A stretch of 34,349 nt of DNA from a virus. Below are positions 2,952 through 12,451 of this stretch, in pieces. Position 1 is the stretch's first letter. Each line of letters begins with the position of its first letter. Made by a program: the position numbers and the translations under genes. The stretch spans positions 1 to 34,349 of IMG/VR virus record IMGVR_UViG_3300048908_000104. The stretch is one strand, 5' to 3'. A model generated the notes under the pieces. The model did not search any database. It worked only from the letters and a program-made list of their open reading frames with translations, and was not told where the DNA came from.

Positions 2952-3914
2952 TCATTCACAGAGCCCGTACGCAGACGAGCATGCGGTTGCCGGTTCGGCG
3001 TCCGCGAGAAGGTCGTATTGCCGGCCGCCGCGGGTGGTCTTCGCCCACTCAACGACGGATGCGATACCGTTGTTGTTGCCCTTCTCGATGTGCATAAAAG
3101 TGGCAACGCGACCAGGGCGCGACACCAGCGTGACGAGGCGCTCCCATTCGGTGATGCGATCGATGTGCTCGGGAAAACGGCGTGCGATCTCGCGGATTTC
3201 GACTTTCTGCGCGTTGATGCAGGGCATGCAACCGACGCGAGACATACCCTCTCGATACAGAGGGTTCGGCTCGATGCCGGCGACTGCGTGCGCCTCGAAC
3301 ACGTCGGCGACGTTCCAGCGCAGGATTGGTCGAAACACCGCGTAATGGTCGCCGCGCCACTCGTAGTGCGGCAGCCACCGGCGTGACTCGCTCTCGTCGG
3401 CGCGCACTCCTTGCCATGACTCGACGAAATAGCCATCGTCGATCAAATCGATTTGGTGTTCCATGATCGGGTTGCGCTTCAGATACTCGGTGCAGTACTG
3501 GCGCTTGCGGGAAGGGAAACCACCCTTCAGCATGCAGAGGTCGAGATACGGGTTCCCGGTGGGGCGCAGCAGTTCCAGCGCGCGCGCTGCCGCCTCAGGC
3601 GTCCAGGAATACGCGAATTCGCGCTTGCCGTAGACGGCCGATTCCGGCTCGCCGGCGGCGATTCGCGCGAGGTTCGCACGCTTCGTTGCAAATTCGTCGG
3701 CGAAATCGGCCTTGACGACGTCTACCTGGATGTCGAGAACGCGCGGCAGATACTCGAGCGCGTATTCGTACGTTGCTTCGTGTTCGTTGCCGGTGTCAGC
3801 GAACACGGCGCGCACGTTGTCGTGGCCGTGCAGCTCAAGCGCGACGAGCAGCGTCGCGGTGCTGTCCTTCCCGCCGGAAAGCGAAACAACGTGGAGGGTA
3901 GGTCGGTCGCTCAT
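2952..3914 (-). CDS. PAPS-reductase/DndC-like N-type ATP pyrophosphatase
   Basis: This 320-residue protein carries the PP-loop SGGKDS at residues 13-18 after a hydrophobic strand, then AVFADTGNEHEATYEY, as in the adenine-nucleotide alpha hydrolase family that includes PAPS reductase and DndC. Cysteines at 127, 141 (RQYCTEYLK), 229 and 232 (GCMPC) resemble the iron-sulfur ligands of DndC-type proteins. The ECGxH motif of true sulfate-assimilation PAPS reductases is not seen. Phage members are common and mostly uncharacterised; sulfur activation for DNA or RNA modification is plausible but unproven, since no dndD/E or modification partner is present. The ATG at 3914 follows AGAGGA. A structured RNA element (3939-4056) lies just upstream. 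Confidence 0.8.
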   Translation of the reverse strand: MSDRPTLHVVSLSGGKDSTATLLVALELHGHDNVRAVFADTGNEHEATYEYALEYLPRVLDIQVDVVKADFADEFATKRANLARIAAGEPESAVYGKREFAYSWTPEAAARALELLRPTGNPYLDLCMLKGGFPSRKRQYCTEYLKRNPIMEHQIDLIDDGYFVESWQGVRADESESRRWLPHYEWRGDHYAVFRPILRWNVADVFEAHAVAGIEPNPLYREGMSRVGCMPCINAQKVEIREIARRFPEHIDRITEWERLVTLVSRPGRVATFMHIEKGNNNGIASVVEWAKTTRGGRQYDLLADAEPATACSSAYGLCE

Positions 3915-3938
3915 CGCATCCTCTGTTAAGTGGTCAAG

Positions 3939-4056
3939 CCTCAATGGCGGGTGCTCGGCTAGCATGTGGCAGCTGGTTAGCATGAAAGCGCCGCGCTGCA
4001 GATCTGTTGGCGTTGTGACGGCGCCCACCCGTCACTCCGAGCACCCACCGTTGAGG
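3939..4056 (-). ncRNA. C4-antisense-like structured RNA element 1
   Basis: On the minus strand a 20-bp basal stem (4037-4056 with 3939-3958; one C-A mismatch and one G-U pair) encloses a second hairpin, GTGACGG/CCGTCAC (4015-4035), set one base inside the 5' arm, and then a long loop ending GCTGCCACATGC. The same hairpin and the GCTGCC-CATGC word recur at the same relative places in element 2 (10599-10755), although the stems differ in sequence. That pattern of conserved loops and covarying stems argues for an RNA. Position in a phage early operon and general shape suggest the C4 antisense RNA family (P1 C4, P4 CI RNA). That identity is from memory and needs a covariance-model search. Confidence 0.5.
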
Positions 4057-4065
4057 CCGGTGGTT

Positions 4066-4089
4066 GCCGCGCGACGATTGCCGCGCGGC
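4066..4089 (-). other. GC-rich hairpin between two early genes
   Basis: GCCGCGCG (4066-4073) pairs perfectly with CGCGCGGC (4082-4089) across an 8-base loop. It lies just after the stop of the frameshifted gene and just before structured RNA element 1. There is no T tract on either strand, so it is not a classical terminator. It may protect an RNA end or separate the two transcripts. Confidence 0.35.
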
Positions 4090-4096
4090 ACGTGGA

Positions 4097-4883
4097 TCAA
4101 TGTGCCTTCCATTCAGCGCCGCGGACGATGCGGCCGACCGGCTGTAGCACGAGTACCTCGGCCTCGCGGTTGCCGCTGACGAGCGCCCGGCCGCGCTTCT
4201 GCGCCTTCTCGATGGTTGCGTGCCGCATGGGCTTCGCCTCGCGGCCGATGGTGACGAATACCGACCCGAGCGGCCGCACATCGCCGCTGAGCGAGTCGAT
4301 GCGCCTTTCGAGATCGGCGTTGTTCGCGCGCAGGCGCGCATTGACCGTCTTCAGCTCATCGTTTTCTTCGCGCAGGCCATCGCGCGCGGCCGCCGTGTCG
4401 GACAGCAGCTTGAACGTCATGTCGAGAGACGTGATTGCATGCGCGTCCGGCTCGGAATAAAAGGGGTTGCCGGCCAATTCATAGGTCACCAGCGCGCGCT
4501 GAAGGGCCGCCAGATGGTCGAGAATCGCGGCGCGATCACTGGTCATCAGCAGATGACGGGCGACGTCGATTACGCCTTGCGCAGACGGGCTGCACGGCGG
4601 TTCCGACGGCTCGACCACCTTCATCTCAGGATTCGCCGATCGCTCCACGATAGCGACCGCCGTCGGCACATTCTCAGCTGCCGCCGGCTCCGCTTTCTCG
4701 CCGCGCGTGAGCCAGTACGCGTATTCGTTGCCGTTGCGCTTCTCGCGTTCGACGACACCATCGGCGTGCATGCGGTTCAGCTCCTTCGCGACACTGAGCT
4801 GGTCTAGCCCCGACGTTCGTCGAGATCTTCTTCGCCGTCGAGTCGACGACCGTGCCGAGGTAGGTTTCGATGTCGGATCTCAT
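4097..4883 (-). pseudogene. winged-helix/coiled-coil phage protein, frameshifted
   Basis: An N-terminal frame from ATG 4883 (MRSDIETYLG ... STAKKISTNVG) stops making sense at a GGGG run (plus-strand CCCC, 4808-4811). The sense continues in the adjacent frame as LDQLSVAKELNRMHADGVVE and runs another 224 residues to 4097. Removing one G joins them into about 261 residues: an N-terminal winged helix, a charged middle, and a coiled coil (REENDELKTVNARLRANNA...LERRIDSL). The two halves only make one recognisable helix-turn-helix when joined. This could be a real loss-of-function mutation, a sequencing error, or programmed slippage. If translated from the internal ATG at 4771, the 224-residue part would lack the DNA-binding domain. 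Confidence 0.65.
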
Positions 4884-5551
4884 GCTTCCTCCGCATCGGC
4901 GTCAGCGGGGTTTTCCTCGTGCCACGACTTCCAGCCCTTGACCCAGGCAATGCACAGCTCGCCGCCCATGACCGGGCATTCGCTTTCGGGCTTGCCTTCT
5001 TCGGCCGCGCGGCGGCCGGCCTCGAACTGCTCGTCGATCTCGGATTGAAGCGGCCCATCGCCGAGCTGCGGCACCGGGCGCGCGTCGACATCGACGATAC
5101 CGTCGCCCATGCCATCGCCGTCGTCGTCGGTGTATTCGCGGCCGAGATCGAGCCCGCGCTGATCCGACTCGCCGCGGACTTCGTCCATACCGCCCGTGTG
5201 TTCGTCCGGATTCGCCACGACGACCAGAACCGCTTTTCCGCTGGCGTCATACAGCTCGTGCAGGTTCGGCGCGGCGCCGCTGAACTTCACGACCGCCTTG
5301 ACGCCATCCTTGATCGTGATCTGTTCGAGATCACCGGCCACGACCGTGCGGCCGTTGCTCGCGATCAGGTGCGTCGCCATCTTCACGTTGTGGTCGACGC
5401 GCTTGTGCAAGCGGTCGATGATGTCGTTCTGCTTCTTCTCGGACAGCTTCACCCAGACGTCGGGCAGCAACTTCAACTCGGTCACGAGCGCGGAAAGCAG
5501 GTCTTTCCCGATCGTGTCGGCGGTCATCTGGAGAACGTTCTTGTCGGTCAT
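4880..5551 (-). CDS. phage protein with C-terminal RMF-like domain
   Basis: A 223-residue protein. Residues 1-115 (MTDKNVLQMTADTIGKDLLS..., VVAGDLEQITIKDGVKAVVK) form a conserved phage N-domain. Residues 120-165 are an acidic linker. Residues 176-212 (EQFEAGRRAAEEGKPESECP, then WVKGWKSWHEE) match the layout of ribosome modulation factor: a GxxAGxxG-type helix, a CP pair, then W--GW. RMF dimerises and silences 70S ribosomes in stationary phase, so this domain could contact ribosomes. That is inference from similarity seen by eye. The ATG at 5551 has only a weak upstream site (GGACGA). The end overlaps the frameshifted gene's start by four bases. Confidence 0.7.
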   Translation of the reverse strand: MTDKNVLQMTADTIGKDLLSALVTELKLLPDVWVKLSEKKQNDIIDRLHKRVDHNVKMATHLIASNGRTVVAGDLEQITIKDGVKAVVKFSGAAPNLHELYDASGKAVLVVVANPDEHTGGMDEVRGESDQRGLDLGREYTDDDGDGMGDGIVDVDARPVPQLGDGPLQSEIDEQFEAGRRAAEEGKPESECPVMGGELCIAWVKGWKSWHEENPADADAEEA

Positions 5552-5605
5552 GGTTGGGTCGTCCTGGTCAGTGGAGGATGATGTAGATGCGCTGGTACGG
5601 CTCGA

Positions 5606-5848
5606 TTACTTCGGAATGCCTCGTTCGTCGAAATGAAGGCGGTCTTCGTCTGCTGTGTGAAACTTGTCTTCTTGCGCGGAATACTCTTCCGCCGTCAGCA
5701 TCTTGTATCGGGGCGCCTTGATTTCGGGATGCGTGAGGGTTGCGATTTGCCCGAGCATTTCATCCCAGCACAGTCGATCTGCGACTCGGCCGCTTTCGGT
5801 GACCGCATATCCGCGATCGTTATCGAAGGTAATGACGATCTGTCTCAT
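5606..5848 (-). CDS. unknown small phage protein, 80 aa
   Basis: The protein reads MRQIVITFDNDRGYAVTESG, then a helical CWDEMLGQIATLTHPEI segment and a charged, acidic tail. It looks like a beta-hairpin plus helix fold, without a recognised motif. Its ATG at 5848 overlaps the upstream stop as TGATG; a GTG at 5851 is an alternative. GAGGG lies about 8 bases upstream. It sits with the recombination genes. Confidence 0.65.
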   Translation of the reverse strand: MRQIVITFDNDRGYAVTESGRVADRLCWDEMLGQIATLTHPEIKAPRYKMLTAEEYSAQEDKFHTADEDRLHFDERGIPK

Positions 5849-6654
5849 CACGCAGCCCTCGCAGCGATCACGTCGTCCTCGAACACGCGCACACCGTCGA
5901 GCGGACAGTTCTTCTTCAGCGCGAGCGCGATCTTGTTGATGGCCGGCATGTTCGCGTCGAGCAGATCGACGTATTCCGGGTGCGCGGCGATGAAGCGGAT
6001 CAGCGCGTGCTTGTCGCTGACCTCGGCCTTCCAGACCTTCCGCGTCGAAACGCCGGCCGTGCGCACCGGCGCGGCCACGACGGGTGCCGTGACGAGCGTC
6101 GCCGTCGTCTGCAGCGTGGCAACCTCGGCCGCGCCTTGCTCGACCCGGCTTTCGGCCTCGGCATTCAGCCGCGCGGCCGCCTCGACATCGCCGGCCGCCG
6201 CAGCCTGTTCGGCCTGGCGCTGGATGGCCTGCGCCTCGGCCTGCGCTGCGGCTTCGCGCGCTGCCGCTTCCTGTTCGAGGCGCGCGCGCTCCTGCCGCGC
6301 AGCTTCTTCGAGGCGCGCTTGCTCGGCGATGCGCAGCTTTTCCTGCTCGCGGTCGTAGCCTTGAATCGCCTTTTTCAGCAGCGCCTCGGCCTGTTCGAGG
6401 TAGTCGGTCGGCGCGCGGAACAGGTCCATCACGGATTTCTTCGCGGCGTCGATCGGCTGCGTGATGGCCTTGCGCTTCGCGTCGAGATCCTTCTGCAGCC
6501 CCTTGATCTTCGTCAGATCCTGAACGGCCAGATCGCGCACTTCGGGGCAGTCGATCTCGAATGCCTTGGCGCTTTGGAGCGCGCGCTCGGCGCCCTTGAA
6601 CAGCGTATCTTCGGGCCTATTGACCTGCAGGTTCACCAGCGGTGTCGTGTCCAT
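5848..6654 (-). CDS. coiled-coil protein of the recombination cassette (DUF1351-like)
   Basis: The 268-residue protein has a helical N-part (LTKIKGLQKDLDAKRKAITQ...IDAAKKSVMDLF), a long alanine/glutamate/arginine coiled coil (about 95-185), and a compact C-terminal domain with KVWKAEVSDKHALIRFIAAH and PAINKIALALKKN. This layout recalls DUF1351-type and other accessory proteins encoded beside RecT/exonuclease pairs. It may act as a structural or inhibitory partner for them, which is inference from position. The ATG at 6654 lies inside the end of the exonuclease gene (overlap 38 bases). Confidence 0.7.
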   Translation of the reverse strand: MDTTPLVNLQVNRPEDTLFKGAERALQSAKAFEIDCPEVRDLAVQDLTKIKGLQKDLDAKRKAITQPIDAAKKSVMDLFRAPTDYLEQAEALLKKAIQGYDREQEKLRIAEQARLEEAARQERARLEQEAAAREAAAQAEAQAIQRQAEQAAAAGDVEAAARLNAEAESRVEQGAAEVATLQTTATLVTAPVVAAPVRTAGVSTRKVWKAEVSDKHALIRFIAAHPEYVDLLDANMPAINKIALALKKNCPLDGVRVFEDDVIAARAA

Positions 6655-7228
6655 TTTTTTCCTTCCAATTGCGGAGAGTGAGAAGCGACAGGAAAACCGG
6701 CCAGTCGCTTTTGTCGGTGTACGGCACGAGTCGATATGTGCCGTCGGCGCGCAGGCCGAGGCCGTAGCGGTCTTCGACGACCGTGCCGTTCTTTGCGAAG
6801 AGTTCGCGGTATGCGGCGAGCTGCAGGCCGATGACCGGGCCGAGCGTCAGCATCTTTTTGATGTCGATGACGGCGCGCCGGCCGTTGATCAGACCGGAGC
6901 GGTCCGGCGTGCCGGCGAAACGCAGTGCGGGATGAAACATGCGCTTTTCGATCGTCTCCGGCACGAAGCCGGTTTCCGCGCGGAACTTGATCCATGCCGT
7001 GAGATACGGCCGCAGCTCGTCCGCGAGGCTGTCCGTGTCGAGGTCGTCGAGGTCGTAGAGCTCGGTCATGCGGTGGACTGCAGAACCGAGTTGACGACCG
7101 CGCTCGAGCGTCTCGCGCGGCACCATCGAGTAATCGATGAGCGGCGCGAGGACTTGCGTCACGCTCGGCACGCGCTTGCCGTTGACGATGTAGGCGTGCG
7201 CGGCCGCATCGAATTGCAGGGCCGTCAT
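6617..7228 (-). CDS. PD-(D/E)XK exonuclease (RecB/Cas4-like), phage recombination
   Basis: This 203-residue protein shows the nuclease core: FAGTPDRSGLINGRRAVIDI, where the D of GTPDR and the acidic residue of IDIKK form the metal site, followed by LGPVIGLQLAAYRELF, the usual QLAxY helix. The N-terminus has VPSVTQVLAPL, typical of RecB-like phage exonucleases. It is expected to resect double-stranded DNA ends to feed the RecT-like annealing protein encoded immediately upstream. Start at ATG 7228 overlaps the recT-like stop as TGATG; a GTG at 7255 is possible but has no better ribosome site. Confidence 0.85.
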   Translation of the reverse strand: MTALQFDAAAHAYIVNGKRVPSVTQVLAPLIDYSMVPRETLERGRQLGSAVHRMTELYDLDDLDTDSLADELRPYLTAWIKFRAETGFVPETIEKRMFHPALRFAGTPDRSGLINGRRAVIDIKKMLTLGPVIGLQLAAYRELFAKNGTVVEDRYGLGLRADGTYRLVPYTDKSDWPVFLSLLTLRNWKEKNGHDTAGEPAGQ

Positions 7229-8250
7229 CACGCGCCCATCGGGTTTTCGATCCACGCGACCACGTCGTGATAGTTCGTCTTGGTCACGCCGTCGTAGCCG
7301 AACTTGAAGTGCTTGCGCATGTCGGCCTCGCCGAGTGCCGCCTGTTCCATCTTCGTCTTCAAGATCCGCAGCACGCTGTCGCTGACCGGTTCGCCTATCA
7401 GGTCGCCTTGGTCGTCGTCCGCGCCGGGCTCGCGCGCGGCGGCCGGTTGCGTGCTATCGGCAGCGGCACGGCGCGTCGAGCGCGCTTGCTGCACCGGCTC
7501 GGCCTGCTTCTGCGTGGCGGCCATTTCGATGACGCCGTCGACGTCCGCCTGGGCGATCGCCGGCTGCTCCGCGGCTCGCTCGCTTTTCGACTTCGGCTGC
7601 GGCACTTCGACGGCCGCCGGCGCACGCGCGCCGCCTTCCTCGACGCCGCCGAATGAAACGGTGCCATCCGGGCGCACGTCGATGATGTCGTGCAGTTCTT
7701 CCTGCGTCGGCAGACCCATCGAAATTTCCGGCGCGGCCGTGTTGATCATCCAGCCGGCGCTGCGGTACATCAGCATCAGCTGCGGGATCGTTTTCCACTT
7801 CGAGCCGTTCTTCCCGTACCAGCCTTCGTCCTTCGCCATCTGGATCGTCACGTCCGGCCCGACGATCTTCTCGCCGCTACTGGTTTCGATCGACGACGCG
7901 CGGCAGCCCCACGAATCGGTGCCTTTCTCGCCGAAGAATTCGTACTTGACGGCGGTGAAGCGGCCGCAGTGGTTGAAGGTCGCGATCAGGAACTTCGCCG
8001 ACCAGCCGGGCCGGCCGTGTACGATGTACAGGTTCTGCATCACCATCAGTGCGTCGGCCTTCAGGCGCTCGGCGAGGTTCAGCGCGATCATGCAGTTGGC
8101 CATGTTCCCTTGAAATTGCTGGGGAACCAGCGTCGACGATGCGAACGCCTTGGCGACGCGTTGCAGCAGTTCGAAACCTTCGAGGTCGAAGAAGCCGGCG
8201 CGGACCGGGACGGACGCGCGCGGCTGCTCGATGACGGCGGGAGTGGACAT
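7228..8250 (-). CDS. recT: RecT-family single-strand annealing protein
   Basis: A 340-residue protein. The core includes FELLQRVAKAFASSTLVPQQ, MANCMIALNLAERLKADALM, QNLYIVHGRPGWSAKFLIAT and a WKTIPQLMLMYRSAGW segment. These are hallmarks of RecT proteins, which coat single-stranded DNA and anneal it during phage recombination and replication. An alanine/glutamine-rich linker (about 205-285) precedes a C-terminal module with MRKHFKFGYDGVTKTNYHDV. AGAGGA precedes the ATG. It leads the recT-exonuclease-coiled-coil set, which overlaps gene to gene. Confidence 0.88.
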   Translation of the reverse strand: MSTPAVIEQPRASVPVRAGFFDLEGFELLQRVAKAFASSTLVPQQFQGNMANCMIALNLAERLKADALMVMQNLYIVHGRPGWSAKFLIATFNHCGRFTAVKYEFFGEKGTDSWGCRASSIETSSGEKIVGPDVTIQMAKDEGWYGKNGSKWKTIPQLMLMYRSAGWMINTAAPEISMGLPTQEELHDIIDVRPDGTVSFGGVEEGGARAPAAVEVPQPKSKSERAAEQPAIAQADVDGVIEMAATQKQAEPVQQARSTRRAAADSTQPAAAREPGADDDQGDLIGEPVSDSVLRILKTKMEQAALGEADMRKHFKFGYDGVTKTNYHDVVAWIENPMGA

Positions 8251-8289
8251 GGAATCCTCTGGAAATGGGTGTAAAAGGGAAAGCGGACG

Positions 8290-8586
8290 TTATGCGGTCG
8301 CCGGAACGATCGGCGCCGGAATCGGCATCTTCTCGATGCACACGTACGGGAAGCGCTCGGAGAACGGCTTGATGAACTTGTAGAAGTGCGAGCCGATCGA
8401 CTCGGCGTTCTTGAATGCGTCGAAGTTCGCTTGCGTGACCTGCGAGTAGTGGTAAAGCGACGACGGGTCGTTCGCCTTGTTCTTGAACCGAATCGCCAGC
8501 GTCTCGCTCGCCGCGTCATATCCGATGCTGTGGATCTGCGACGACTCGACCGGCTGCATTTCGATTGCGACAGTGGGTGCGTTCAT
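8290..8586 (-). CDS. KTSC-domain protein
   Basis: This 98-residue protein carries VESSQIHSIGYDAASETLAI, then SLYHYSQVTQANFDAFKNAE and SIGSHFYKFIKP. This is the KTSC-domain pattern (S-x-I-x-x-I-G-Y-D ... L-x-I-x-F ... Y-x-Y-x-x-V). The domain is short, found next to nucleases and in phages, and its role is unknown. The ATG at 8586 follows GAGGT, and overlaps the small membrane protein upstream by four bases. Confidence 0.75.
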   Translation of the reverse strand: MNAPTVAIEMQPVESSQIHSIGYDAASETLAIRFKNKANDPSSLYHYSQVTQANFDAFKNAESIGSHFYKFIKPFSERFPYVCIEKMPIPAPIVPATA

Positions 8587-8750
8587 GCGTACCTCGCGTT
8601 GATGGTGGTGACGGACGTGCCGTCCTGGTTGAGATAGGCGATCGCGATCATGCAGATGAAGGCGAGGGCGATCATCAGCGCCATCGCGCACACCGGGCTG
8701 CGTTCGAACAGGCGGTCGAGGGCGTCGCAGAAGTAGGTGATCGGGTTCAT
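8583..8750 (-). CDS. small membrane protein, 55 aa
   Basis: Read on the minus strand from ATG 8750 the frame gives MNPITYFCDALDRLFERSPV, then a hydrophobic span CAMALMIALAFICMIAIAYL, and a short polar tail. One transmembrane helix at about residues 21-40 is clear. The gene overlaps both neighbours by four bases (ATGA), the packing seen throughout this operon, which supports that it is real despite its size. No function is known; small early membrane proteins may aid exclusion or interfere with the host envelope. Confidence 0.6.
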   Translation of the reverse strand: MNPITYFCDALDRLFERSPVCAMALMIALAFICMIAIAYLNQDGTSVTTINARYA

Positions 8751-8905
8751 CGTGCAATCCCCGCGAGAAGTTCATAGGCCGGCGCAATGCCGCACGCGAT
8801 CAGATACAGCGCGCCGAGCACCGCGAGTGGGAACCAGTCGCGCGATACAACCGATCGGCTGTAATCGCGCAATACAGGCGATAGGCTGTTGAGAGGGGTG
8901 CGCAT
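8747..8905 (-). CDS. small membrane protein, 52 aa
   Basis: The frame from ATG 8905 reads MRTPLNSLSPVLRDYSRSVV, then SRDWFPLAVLGALYLIACGI and a short tail. There is one hydrophobic helix (about residues 25-42). AAGGA lies 6 bases upstream of the ATG; a longer in-frame start at 8959 would enter the neighbouring gene. It is coupled to the following membrane protein by ATGA, so the two may act together. Function is unknown. Confidence 0.6.
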   Translation of the reverse strand: MRTPLNSLSPVLRDYSRSVVSRDWFPLAVLGALYLIACGIAPAYELLAGIAR

Positions 8906-8906
8906 G

Positions 8907-9179
8907 TCAGTCCTTCCCGTAGAAGTAGTCTTCGTTGCTGAACAGATGCGCGTTGGCAAATTCCGTCGGCTCGTCGCCGCGCTCGCGCGCTTCTTGTCGA
9001 TCCCAGTAAGCTCGGGATTGCCCCGTGCGCTGTTCCTGCTTGATGGCCTTGCACGACTTCGAGCAGAACAGACCCCATCCGCGCTTCACGTCAGCAGCGC
9101 GCGCGAAAAACGGCGTCTTGCAGCGCTTGCACTTGCGCTCGACCATCTTCGGCGCAGGCGCGCGTTTGACTTCGCTCAC
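8907..9179 (-). CDS. zinc-ribbon phage protein, 90 aa
   Basis: A basic N-terminus leads into a zinc ribbon: KCKRCKTPFFARAADVKRG, then FCSKSCKAIKQ, i.e. C-x2-C ... C-x3-C. The tail is charged with repeated aromatic residues (NAHLFSNEDYFYGKD). The GTG start at 9179 was chosen because GGGAGGTG precedes it and it overlaps the upstream stop; the longer frame in the same phase is a shadow. Such zinc-ribbon proteins are common in phage early operons and of unknown role. Confidence 0.7.
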   Translation of the reverse strand: MSEVKRAPAPKMVERKCKRCKTPFFARAADVKRGWGLFCSKSCKAIKQEQRTGQSRAYWDRQEARERGDEPTEFANAHLFSNEDYFYGKD

Positions 9180-9523
9180 AGCGCACCTCCCACAATCGTC
9201 ACGTGCCGCACCGGCGTCGGCGCAGCCTTGCGGCCTGCCTTGATCAGGGCGGCGTCGAGGGCCATGCGCACGCCCGACGTCAGCAGCGGCTTGCCGTTGT
9301 GCCGAGCCGCGTCGTCCTCGGCGGCGATCAGTTCGAGGGCCATCGCCATGTCGGGAGCGGCGGCGATCAGAGCTCCGTTTGCTTCGACGATGGGCCCATC
9401 GATCTCCGAAGATCCATAGGCGCCGTACACGCATGCAACCGCGTATTCGTTCTCATCGGCCGTTCGCACCATGCCGAGCTTGCTGGCGCTCCACGGCCCC
9501 GGCGTGTGCTTGATCTCGTTCAT
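9176..9523 (-). CDS. HTPGPW-motif phage protein, 115 aa
   Basis: The protein begins MNEIKHTPGPWSASKLGMVR and contains VEANGALIAAAPDMAMALEL, the conserved hallmark of a very common phage early protein family of unknown function (HTPGPW near the N-terminus, then A-N-x-x-L-I-A-A-A-P). The C-terminus here has a helical RMALDAALIKAGRKAA. The ATG at 9523 follows GAGGTGA and overlaps the previous stop by four bases. Confidence 0.75.
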   Translation of the reverse strand: MNEIKHTPGPWSASKLGMVRTADENEYAVACVYGAYGSSEIDGPIVEANGALIAAAPDMAMALELIAAEDDAARHNGKPLLTSGVRMALDAALIKAGRKAAPTPVRHVTIVGGAL

Positions 9524-9858
9524 GCTTCACCTCGCGCGCGGAGCATGGCGTCGGCCATGCGATAAGCAGCCCGTGCCGCGACGTCAGCGAACTTTTGCTG
9601 TTCAAATTCGATGAATTCGGGGTCCGCGCTGTTGATCGGAACGTTTGTGCTCGGGTCCGCAAGCAACCCTTGCAGTGCCTTCGCCGCGAAGTAATCTCGT
9701 AGCGACACGCCGGCACGAGCGCGCGCCGTCGCTTCGATGTAGAGGCGGTCGCGTTCGGCCGAATCAGCGATTCCTTCAATCGCAGCTGCGCCGATGCGAT
9801 GCACCGACTGTGCATCGGTAAGCGGAAATGCCGGGCCGCCGTCGTTGATCTTGTCCAT
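9520..9858 (-). CDS. GGPAFP/SLRDYFAAKAL phage protein, 112 aa
   Basis: This protein has DGGPAFP near the N-terminus and GVSLRDYFAAKALQGLLADP in the middle, a signature of another widespread phage early family with no known activity. It ends in a helix AAYRMADAMLRARGEA. GAGGGA precedes the ATG at 9858. The gene couples to the HTPGPW protein by a four-base overlap; these two families often occur side by side in phages. Confidence 0.75.
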   Translation of the reverse strand: MDKINDGGPAFPLTDAQSVHRIGAAAIEGIADSAERDRLYIEATARARAGVSLRDYFAAKALQGLLADPSTNVPINSADPEFIEFEQQKFADVAARAAYRMADAMLRARGEA

Positions 9859-9874
9859 GTGGTCCCTCGCTCGC

Positions 9875-10096
9875 TTACGCGATCAGTTCGCCGCGCAGAT
9901 TTACAGCGGTCTGGCCGGTCGCTTTCAAGAATTCCGGGCCGGTCGTCGTCTGCGAAACATGCGCGCCGGTGCTGTTGATAACGACACGAAATTCCGTCGT
10001 GTACTCGTGCGACTGCTCTTTGATCTGGCGATGTAGTTCCGCGATGAGCTGCGTGATGTTTGCGGCGACTTTGCCGCTCTGTTCGATGTTGAGCAT
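9875..10096 (-). CDS. unknown small phage protein, 73 aa
   Basis: The frame from ATG 10096 reads MLNIEQSGKVAANITQLIAE with a following LHRQIKEQSHEYTTEFRVVI and a threonine-rich beta-like end. It appears to be an N-terminal helix pair plus strands. GAGGGA precedes the ATG, the same ribosome-site context as its downstream neighbour. No family is recognised. Confidence 0.6.
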   Translation of the reverse strand: MLNIEQSGKVAANITQLIAELHRQIKEQSHEYTTEFRVVINSTGAHVSQTTTGPEFLKATGQTAVNLRGELIA

Positions 10097-10122
10097 GTGG
10101 TCCCTCGGTGTGGTGTGATGGG

Positions 10123-10566
10123 TCAGTCGGCGAGCGCGCGACGCCCGATATGGTCGGCGCAGCTCGAAAACCCGGCGGCGCCCGGCCCGAACTTCTGGCC
10201 GCACGACGAGCACAGGACGTTGGCGAAGCGCGGGCGGTCGCTGTCGAGCGAGCGCTCGGCCTCGAGCTCGGCGTCCCCGCTCATCGCATGCACGATGATC
10301 GACATCACCAGATCGCCCAGCGCCTCCGGCGACTCGCGCCACGCAGCGCGCAGTGCGCGGCCGTGCTTCTCCTGCGTCGCGCTGTGCATGCCGCCGACCA
10401 GATCGTCGAACGACAGCGCGGCGATCTTCGCCTTCAGGCGCTCCTTCGCGATCTGCGCGACGAGCTCGGCGCGGTCAGCTTCGGCGTCGGCCACGTCGTT
10501 GAACTGCTGATGCTGGCGATCCGTCCAGAATTCGGCGGCGCGCTCGGTTAATTGAGGATTGAGCAT
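10123..10566 (-). CDS. phage protein with C-terminal zinc motif, first gene of leftward operon
   Basis: A 147-residue protein, mostly helical (TERAAEFWTDRQHQQFNDVA ... RAELVAQIAKERLKAKIAAL), ending in LCSSCGQKFGPGAAGFSSCA-DHIGRR, a likely zinc site (C-x2-C ... C-x2-H). ATG 10566 has AGGAG 5 bases upstream; GTG 10572 is less likely. It is the first clear gene downstream of structured RNA element 2, and a short hairpin (10586-10603) lies just ahead of its ribosome site, so its translation may be controlled. Function is unknown. Confidence 0.7.
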   Translation of the reverse strand: MLNPQLTERAAEFWTDRQHQQFNDVADAEADRAELVAQIAKERLKAKIAALSFDDLVGGMHSATQEKHGRALRAAWRESPEALGDLVMSIIVHAMSGDAELEAERSLDSDRPRFANVLCSSCGQKFGPGAAGFSSCADHIGRRALAD

Positions 10567-10585
10567 ATGCACTCCTAACAGGTTT

Positions 10586-10603
10586 GCCGGGAGACATTCC
10601 GGC
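10586..10603 (-). promoter_or_regulatory. alternative hairpin upstream of 10566 gene
   Basis: GCCGG (10599-10603 read on minus), the last arm of element 2, can instead pair with CCGGC (10586-10590) across 8 bases. This short hairpin ends about 9 bases before the AGGAG ribosome site of the gene starting at 10566. The two pairings are mutually exclusive, so the fold or processing of element 2 could affect ribosome access. No T tract follows, so it is not a terminator. Confidence 0.35.
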
Positions 10604-10755
10604 GGTACTCACTGCACTGGTGGACGGATACGCGACACTCGCATGAGGCAGCGTTTTCGCGTGGCAAGCGTGTCTTCAGACTCATCAAAAACAAGGTTTG
10701 TGACGGGGCCCAGCCGTCACTGCCGCATACCCGTCCATCAGGGCAGTAATGCCGG
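10599..10755 (-). ncRNA. C4-antisense-like structured RNA element 2
   Basis: On the minus strand an imperfect stem of about 30 bp runs from CCGGC (10751-10755) paired with GCCGG (10599-10603), through ACTGC/GCAGT and CTGATGGAC/GTCCACCAG, to a 13-bp inner part (GGACGGGTATGCG with CGCGTATCCGTCC) whose two differences are G-U pairs on this strand only. Inside the 5' arm sits the hairpin GTGACGG/CCGTCAC, as in element 1, and GCTGCCTCATGC precedes the 3' arm. The wobble pairs favour a minus-strand RNA. It lies in the leader of the leftward operon, where P1 C4 and P4 CI RNAs lie. Family assignment is tentative. Confidence 0.52.
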
Positions 10756-11142: not shown

Positions 11143-11171
11143 ATTAAACACCATGTTTATACTAGTGTCAA
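11143..11171 (-). promoter_or_regulatory. leftward early promoter (PL-like)
   Basis: Read on the minus strand, a perfect -35 box TTGACA (11166-11171) is followed after exactly 17 bases by TTTAAT (11143-11148), five of six -10 consensus bases. The start of transcription would be near 11136, giving a leader of about 570 bases before the gene at 10566 that contains structured RNA element 2. One operator covers the spacer/-10 and another covers the -35, so the CI-like repressor should shut it off. Confidence 0.8.
11145..11159. promoter_or_regulatory. repressor operator OL1
   Basis: TAAACACCATGTTTA is a palindrome (TAAACA-3-TGTTTA). Its reverse complement is identical to the operator at 12464-12478 on the other side of the repressor gene. 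It overlaps the spacer and -10 box of the leftward promoter. Confidence 0.75.
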
Positions 11172-11183
11172 ACGTGGTGTTTA
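11169..11183. promoter_or_regulatory. repressor operator OL2
   Basis: CAAACGTGGTGTTTA matches the rightward operator TAAACATGGTGTTTA at 13 of 15 positions. Its centre is 24 bp from the centre of OL1, a little over two helical turns, which suits side-by-side binding of repressor dimers. It overlaps the -35 box of the leftward promoter. Confidence 0.65.
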
Positions 11184-11607: not shown

Positions 11608-12405
11608 TCAGTTGCCGCCGGCCGGCCCTGATCCCGAACGATACATGACCTCGCCGGCGATCTGAAGGCTCGCGAGCTGATCGGCCGCGATGATGCGGTC
11701 CGGGAAATCGGCATTGTATGAATGCAGGCGAAGCGCGCCTTCGGGCTCTTTGAAGATCTGCTTCACGAGCGGCTCTTCTTCGAAGTACACCGCGTAGACC
11801 CGGCCGTCGCGCACGTGGTTGCGCGTGGTGCAGATCATCATCAGATCGCGGTTGAAAAGGTAGGGCTCCATGCTCGGGCCGTGCACCTGGGCGAGCTTGC
11901 AGTCCTGCGGCTTGACGCCGAGCGCCTTGAAAAAGCCGATGTCGAACGGCAGCGCCTTTTTCTGGCGAATCTCCCACTGAATCAAGCCTGTCCCCGCCGA
12001 AAATCTGTAGTCATAGCGGTCAATCCAGACTCGATCCTCATCGGGTTCGAGATCTTCCGGCCGCTCCCATACGGTTACGTTACCTTTGTCCTTTGGGAGC
12101 AAACGTTTAATAAGCGCCTCATCTTGGCGCATGCCCGACCCACCAGATGCTTCGGAATTGTGCTCGGGGGCAGTGAACATTGCGCCCGAGCCTTCCTCAA
12201 TCCATGTCGCGCTGATTCCCAGTTCCTTCTGGGCCAGCAGGCGTCCCTGCTTCGATACCCCGTTCCCGCGGTATGACCAGTTGTTGATCGTCTGCTCGCT
12301 CTGGTTGAGCGCGCGCGCCAGGTCGGCCGGCGTCTCAATATCGGATCGGGCTTTCTTGGCGGCTTCGAATAGCCGGCGCGCCGTCTCATGCATCACTTTT
12401 TCCAT
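11608..12405 (-). CDS. CI-like phage repressor, S24 peptidase family
   Basis: A 265-residue protein. Residues 22-48 (ETPADLARALNQSEQTINNW) form a helix-turn-helix of the XRE type. The C-terminal S24/LexA domain has an Ala-Gly self-cleavage site at 137-138 (FSAGTG), the nucleophile Ser178 in HGPSMEP, and the general base Lys215 in LVKQIFK. The 37-residue Ser-Lys spacing is usual for the family, so RecA-induced self-cleavage is expected. ATG 12405 was chosen for GAGAGA upstream; ATG 12444 is also in frame. It binds, by inference, the 15-bp palindromes flanking it at 11145-11183 and 12464-12478. Confidence 0.88.
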   Translation of the reverse strand: MEKVMHETARRLFEAAKKARSDIETPADLARALNQSEQTINNWSYRGNGVSKQGRLLAQKELGISATWIEEGSGAMFTAPEHNSEASGGSGMRQDEALIKRLLPKDKGNVTVWERPEDLEPDEDRVWIDRYDYRFSAGTGLIQWEIRQKKALPFDIGFFKALGVKPQDCKLAQVHGPSMEPYLFNRDLMMICTTRNHVRDGRVYAVYFEEEPLVKQIFKEPEGALRLHSYNADFPDRIIAADQLASLQIAGEVMYRSGSGPAGGN

Positions 12406-12451
12406 GGCGCGATTCTCTCGCGAGTAAACGTCTTGTTGATACACGCGGTGT

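Follow-up and report, generated by a model that had tools for sequence, protein, structure and literature searches.

What kind of RNA is carried in two related copies within one phage early operon, and what might it do for the genes that follow it? The question is raised by the window, by which we mean the whole stretch of DNA analysed here (34,349 bases, IMG/VR virus record IMGVR_UViG_3300048908_000104; coordinates are window positions). The window is a temperate phage of the Burkholderia type, and its early operon runs leftward from a CI-like repressor gene through RecT and exonucleases to a gene of the PAPS-reductase family (DndC-like). One minus-strand element, E2 (10613–10745), lies in the leader of this operon, and another, E1 (3936–4059), directly ahead of the DndC-like gene; the original prediction, made from the letters of the window alone, had placed both correctly, with outer stems slightly narrower than those we find, and had tentatively assigned them to the C4/CI antisense RNA family of phages P1 and P4. 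As judged by sequence comparison, E1 and E2 belong to an RNA family, found in Burkholderia and its phages, that has not been described before.

The two elements have their architecture in common: an outer stem P1 of 20–22 base pairs (bp) encloses two hairpins, P2, which has a 7-bp stem and the loop NTGGGCN, and the small P3, in which CGC or AGC pairs with GCG or GCT around the loop TGCCNNAT. In E1 the 5' and 3' arms of P1 are GGCCTCAACGGTGGGTGCTCGG (4037–4058) and CCGAGCACCCGCCATTGAGGCT (3937–3958), P2 is GTGACGG-GTGGGCG-CCGTCAC (4015–4035) and P3 is AGC-TGCCACAT-GCT (3961–3974), all on the minus strand. The corresponding minus-strand parts of E2 are the P1 arms CTGATGGACGGGTATGCGGCA (10721–10741) and TGTCGCGTATCCGTCCACCAG (10617–10637), the P2 hairpin GTGACGG-CTGGGCC-CCGTCAC (10700–10720) and the P3 hairpin CGC-TGCCTCAT-GCG (10640–10653). 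The P1 sequences of the two are unrelated, as had been pointed out, and pairing is intact in both. The window holds exactly two instances of the hairpin GTGACGG-NTGGGCN-CCGTCAC against a shuffle expectation of 0.02 (allowing up to three mismatches), and the shared word GCTGCC-x-CATGC, noticed earlier without being recognised as a helix, is P3. What had been described as G-U differences in the inner stem of E2 are not there: P2 is identical in the two elements, the hairpins differ at both ends of the P2 loop, and the G-U pairs lie in P1. The minus-strand folds are far better than those of shuffled sequences (z −4.5 for E1 and −6.1 for E2; none of 200 shuffles was as good). The plus strand of both elements folds too, because each is a long palindrome, and the strand was decided by counts of G-U pairs and A-C mismatches, not by folding.

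That the pair represents a selected RNA, as originally proposed, is borne out by very strong covariation across homologues. Among 68 distinct elements, 94.5% of cells are paired (33–37% with slid partners), two-sided changes are seen in 27 of the 32 pairs (22 of 22 in P1, 4 of 7 in P2 and 1 of 3 in P3, where CG changes to AU), and the covariation score is 0.516, as compared to 0.202 after shuffling; since this set was aligned with the covariance model, the pair counts lean towards that model. An alignment of 31 sequences made independently with MAFFT agrees with this, with two-sided changes at 14 pairs and with P2 invariant only because the search pattern had fixed it, and RNAalifold recovers P1, P2 and P3 unaided. 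The loops are unpaired and nearly invariant (TGGGC of P2, TGCC..AT of P3), and every member could form a GGC:GCC contact between them. There are 159 G-U pairs against 42 A-C mismatches overall, and 116 against 14 in the inner helices. This excess argues for selection on the gene-sense RNA strand: such selection would produce it, whereas a DNA cruciform or an antisense strand would not.

The same bias bears on the idea that the element works as DNA, as a cassette boundary or a mobile or recombination site that folds when single-stranded and through which DNA-modification genes are swapped. Dozens of phages carry a single syntenic element before exchangeable genes, copies flank single genes in two chromosomal loci (L174 and L172), and copies are clustered on chromosomes, as one might expect of such a site. 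However, so strong a bias towards G-U over A-C marks RNA of one strand, the orientation and the spacing to the gene are fixed, and no recombinase is seen beside the element in the contexts read, which together make a DNA-level role very improbable.

Beyond the window, a first loop pattern retrieved 41 IMG/VR contigs, and 56 were found in total with a second, looser pattern; with the exception of one deletion form, all family matches have the same architecture. The covariance model R1, built from 31 sequences (123 positions, 22-bp enclosing P1), gives 138 bits for E1 and 74 bits for E2, both of which display the defining features of the new family, and it recognises a single element in almost all of 44 records. 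The weaker second match in most of these records is the other strand of the same palindrome, and plus-strand matches of about 25–40 bits are likewise its reflections. Of 65 Burkholderia genomes searched with R1, 48 have copies; a few copies are of the phage type and most are diverged, with other P1 and P2 stems (for example, P2 GGTGGCC-GGTGGGCGC-GGCCAC) and unchanged loops. A second model, R2 (75.8 bits for E2), detects the element in 34 of 299 Burkholderiaceae genomes, 32 of which the search of the genus had already brought up, while a class-wide sample of 274 genomes holds nothing except the B. cenocepacia reference and one chance hairpin. The match outside Burkholderia (G403) is a long hairpin without the TGGGC loop and was dismissed as chance; similarly, the exact loop pattern matches GTDB genomes 57 times, nearly always in rplT coding sequence or by chance, and only two of the matches (L076 and L100) are real. 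Rfam has nothing at gathering score for the window and no match for the chromosomal loci, and for the terms used we found no description of the element in the open literature, supplements being outside the search.

Among named phages, the element is carried by Burkholderia phage Bcep176 and by the QDWS/zrk29-1 record. The annotated gene gp43 of Bcep176 (L103, NC_007497.1 15698–15910) overlaps the RNA element; we treated it as a spurious open reading frame that probably encodes no protein. The records of 'Hujiaoplasma phage zrk29-1' and 'Shewanella phage vB_Sb_QDWS' (L042 and L104; OP650936.1 and OK094664.1) are each 47,902 bases long and agree in their matches, and the elements and early genes of both are of the Burkholderia type. 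It looks as if a single phage had been deposited twice, with unrelated hosts, which, together with this Burkholderia-type content, makes the host labels doubtful. The deletion form (L020, 752) is a natural variant in one phage, in which P1 and P2 are retained as a single long hairpin, the middle region and P3 are missing, and no obvious gene start follows. Three records of a plasmid collection carry the bcl element described below, with no genes annotated at that place.

Membership in the C4/CI family, in which an antisense RNA would act as in P1 and P4, did not hold up. It would suit the leader position of E2 and the conserved loops enclosed by a stem. However, a search of both elements against RF01695 and the rest of Rfam (E ≤ 10) returned nothing resembling C4, and the C4 model does not match any of 11 element-bearing phages, while the same model, as a positive control, detects a true C4 elsewhere in a B. 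cenocepacia genome at 75.8 bits. Furthermore, within 300 nucleotides (nt) on either side of 117 element occurrences the longest complement to the loops equals shuffled values, so that loop targets are absent nearby, and the window phage has a protein CI-like repressor. We therefore consider a C4-type RNA hardly credible here.

In the phages, the placement of the element is regular. At E1-type loci the next start codon lies 42–52 nt past P3 and about 20–28 nt past P1, however unrelated the gene, and in fully read phage loci the element occupies a syntenic place between the recombination genes and an exchangeable DNA-modification block. Seventeen of the 34 first genes behind E1-type elements encode DNA methyltransferases by Pfam (13 C5, 2 N4/N6 and 2 Dam); PAPS reductases (1 in Pfam, 2 in PHROGs), one Lar restriction-alleviation protein and one ASCH protein are also found. 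The fixed spacing, and the fact that many of the following genes encode S-adenosylmethionine (SAM)-dependent methyltransferases, would be understandable if the element were a riboswitch or other translational switch on the following start codon, for instance one responsive to SAM, and E1 does give a weak SAM-IV match. This match is not significant (19.6 bits against a gathering score of 38, E 0.26) and leaves the conserved core uncovered. The element is also common to lectin, peptidyl-prolyl isomerase, exopolysaccharide and PAPS-reductase genes, and the ribosome-binding site is equally accessible with and without it, which disposes of the element as a mask of that site and renders the switch improbable.

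An intrinsic terminator ends at most 17 nt upstream of P1 in 24 of 54 phage elements, as compared to 0.6 in shuffles, and these terminators have several unrelated sequences. Many other elements have a GC-rich hairpin without a T-run in the same place; so does window E1, with TGCCGCGCGGCAATCGTCGCGCGGCA directly 5' of it (4065–4090, minus strand). We found no sigma70-like promoter beyond chance around the phage elements, which speaks against the element being a promoter itself, and none in the stretch from the preceding terminator or hairpin to the gene behind E1. Since there is no promoter beyond chance near the element, readthrough seems to be needed for the gene behind it. That this would be a second gene under a control of its own, as originally suggested, is plausible. 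The pairing of a leader copy with a downstream copy, unusual as it is, is found again in no fewer than three further phages (QDWS/zrk29-1, G032 and G376), so that four are known with the window phage; in these three the leader copy precedes a gene starting M(H)MLNP..TERAAEFW, of the same type as the first gene of the window operon. Most phages have an E1-type copy only, and two metagenomic contigs (G367 and G377) have two elements close together. Diverged elements also occur in other contig types, as a tandem pair (L197), as two copies (G377) and singly in a 93-kb contig; in L197, L207 and L204 a gene start at the usual distance is absent.

Adjacent terminators and leader copies make processive antitermination, or control of elongation, the strongest rival to the explanation that we favour below, although we still rate it as unlikely. 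Here the nascent RNA, like HK022 put or EAR, would modify RNA polymerase and let it pass downstream terminators; E2 would license the operon and E1 re-license it for the distal DNA-modification genes. The E2-type copy in the early-operon leader of four phages, the intra-operon terminators right before E1-type elements with no promoter behind them, and a chromosomal copy that precedes the glycosyltransferase gene of an exopolysaccharide cluster are all in line with this, and a leader place at some distance is acceptable since about 270 nt separate putR from the start site upstream of it (PMC9378689). On the other hand, E1 comes after the conserved terminator and not before it, most phages lack the leader copy, antitermination would be senseless for copies at operon 3' ends between convergent genes, and the fold (two hairpins inside a 20-bp stem, about 123 nt) is unlike that of put.

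On Burkholderia chromosomes the element is most often placed about 300 nt ahead of bclA, which opens the fucose-lectin operon bclACB (PA-IIL and Bc2L-C domains). This operon is controlled by quorum sensing and is required for biofilm structure, and no lux box has been recognised at its promoter (PMC3426421). Other copies precede genes for an exopolysaccharide-cluster glycosyltransferase, a trimeric-autotransporter-like adhesin, a symporter and a PPIC protein, of which the glycosyltransferase, autotransporter and symporter are named from reading the sequence and not from a family search. Some copies follow bclB or a PPIC gene, always in the orientation of the gene, and some are placed where convergent genes meet, at the 3' ends of operons. 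In two genomes a PPIC-type peptidyl-prolyl isomerase gene lies between elements of the same orientation (L174 7267–8931; L172 13751–14999). Upstream of the bclA element, between a divergent leuA-like gene and bclA, 29 aligned Burkholderia loci (L138–L190) share a further GC-rich hairpin, likewise conserved (GGTGCGGCGCCGG...CCGGTGCCGCACC), and the conserved block AATCAGTCC.GTCCGATAGGC.

These sites also bear on whether the element could be an independent small RNA that acts in trans by base-pairing through its loops, host and phage copies competing for targets or sharing them. Pairing RNAs typically combine highly conserved loops with free stems, about 300 nt separate the bclA copy from its gene, and further copies stand at 3' ends. 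Conversely, phage copies keep a short fixed distance to the start codon of any following gene, no terminator lies behind the element in phages, and the flanks hold no complementary sequence; moreover, the element is not named in the main texts of the B. cenocepacia small-RNA papers that were read. A trans-acting RNA thus seems quite unlikely.

The explanation that we tentatively favour, at somewhat less than an even chance, is that of a cis-acting element of untranslated regions (UTRs), read by a Burkholderia factor and affecting the adjoining mRNA ends. As the covariation shows, the gene-sense RNA folds with P1 (about 20–22 bp, sequence free) around P2 (loop NUGGGCN) and P3 (loop UGCCNNAU). 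Transcripts that read through the preceding terminator would fold the element; a Burkholderia-encoded partner, probably a protein, would recognise the P2 and P3 loops, possibly joined by the GGC:GCC contact; and the long P1 stem would mark or protect the end of the downstream mRNA, acting on its processing and stability. The amount of the phage DNA-modification gene product, or of host lectin or exopolysaccharide mRNA, might be set in this way. An effect on mRNA ends is preferred because the element is found at both 5' and 3' ends and has a long, sequence-free P1, and use at both ends fits it better than a start-codon switch. Several points weigh against this explanation. The terminator directly upstream equally allows a role in elongation or antitermination. 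Between the bclA copy and its gene lies a conserved AT-rich stretch that could hold the real bclA promoter, which would place the copy outside the 5' UTR. The chromosomal copies cluster on one replicon region, and local duplication therefore contributes to their spread. Finally, the GGC:GCC loop contact never varies and is therefore beyond test by comparison.

Whatever its action, this is a strongly supported RNA family that is missing from Rfam and common to temperate phages and their host genus, and its members mark the leaders of DNA-modification (antirestriction) genes in phages and of B. cenocepacia biofilm operons. If the signal is a shared regulatory one, a Burkholderia RNA regulator not known so far would come to light, with phages plugging into host control. 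The more specific proposal of a Burkholderia-specific post-transcriptional regulon, in which one RNA-binding factor reads P2 and P3 on host biofilm-matrix mRNAs and phages have captured the element, is doubtful at present; if true, temperate phages would couple antirestriction gene expression to the control of host lectins, exopolysaccharide and adhesins. With a covariance model in hand, compact loci such as Bcep176 and bclACB are suited to direct tests.

The remaining features of the window place the two elements in their operon. The CI-like (S24) repressor gene lies upstream of the leader (11611–12444, minus strand; phrog_4 / phrog_6201). A putative early promoter, TTGACA-17-TTTAAT (11143–11171, minus strand), predicted from sequence, is embedded in an operator-like inverted repeat (11145–11183), and its predicted transcript would cross E2. 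The repeat TAAACACCATGTTT/AAACGTGGTGTTTA (11143–11183) overlaps this near-consensus minus-strand promoter, and the two are likely the operator and PL of the CI-like repressor. The first gene behind E2 (10126–10572, minus strand; M(H)MLNPQLTERAAEFW..., starting at 10572 or 10566) is of unknown function and has no PHROG match. A 15.8-kb metagenomic contig (L025, IMGVR_UViG_3300048916_000074) carries a near-identical copy of the E2 region. RecT (7231–8250) and the exonucleases (6620–7255 and 5851–6654) follow in the leftward operon, and the PAPS-reductase family gene behind E1 (2955–3914, minus strand, ATG at 3914) matches Pfam PF01507 (E 6e-22) and phrog_424 (E 8e-73).

How, then, does the element compare with systems already described? 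Like C4 antisense RNA (RF01695), it is a folded RNA that is carried by phages and may be placed in the leader of an operon, and a real C4 is known in Burkholderia as ncS24, on a genomic island of J2315 (PMC4603805). The new element differs from C4 in sequence and fold and is found before methyltransferase genes and around host lectin genes. The put sites of HK022 cause antitermination in cis via the zinc-binding domain of the RNA polymerase beta' subunit. They too are cis elements with two hairpins in an early phage leader, and a phage may have two copies (putL and putR; PMC9378689). A put-like place, in the leader and downstream of the early promoter, is occupied by E2 in four phages, while E1-type elements follow the nearest terminator and, unlike put, the element occurs on host chromosomes. 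The put fold itself is not shared: put is about 70 nt long, with two stem-loops and no enclosing stem, as compared to 123 positions with a 22-bp P1. EAR and JUMPstart are leader elements of exopolysaccharide operons, and so resemble the new element as RNA elements of biofilm-matrix or polysaccharide operons; they belong to other bacteria and differ in sequence and fold, and the new element has no Rfam match. Finally, the RNase III sites of phage early operons, of the T7 and lambda type, likewise present a long, sequence-free double-stranded stem between or before early genes. These sites need no invariant loops, whereas the new element has two almost invariant internal hairpin loops.

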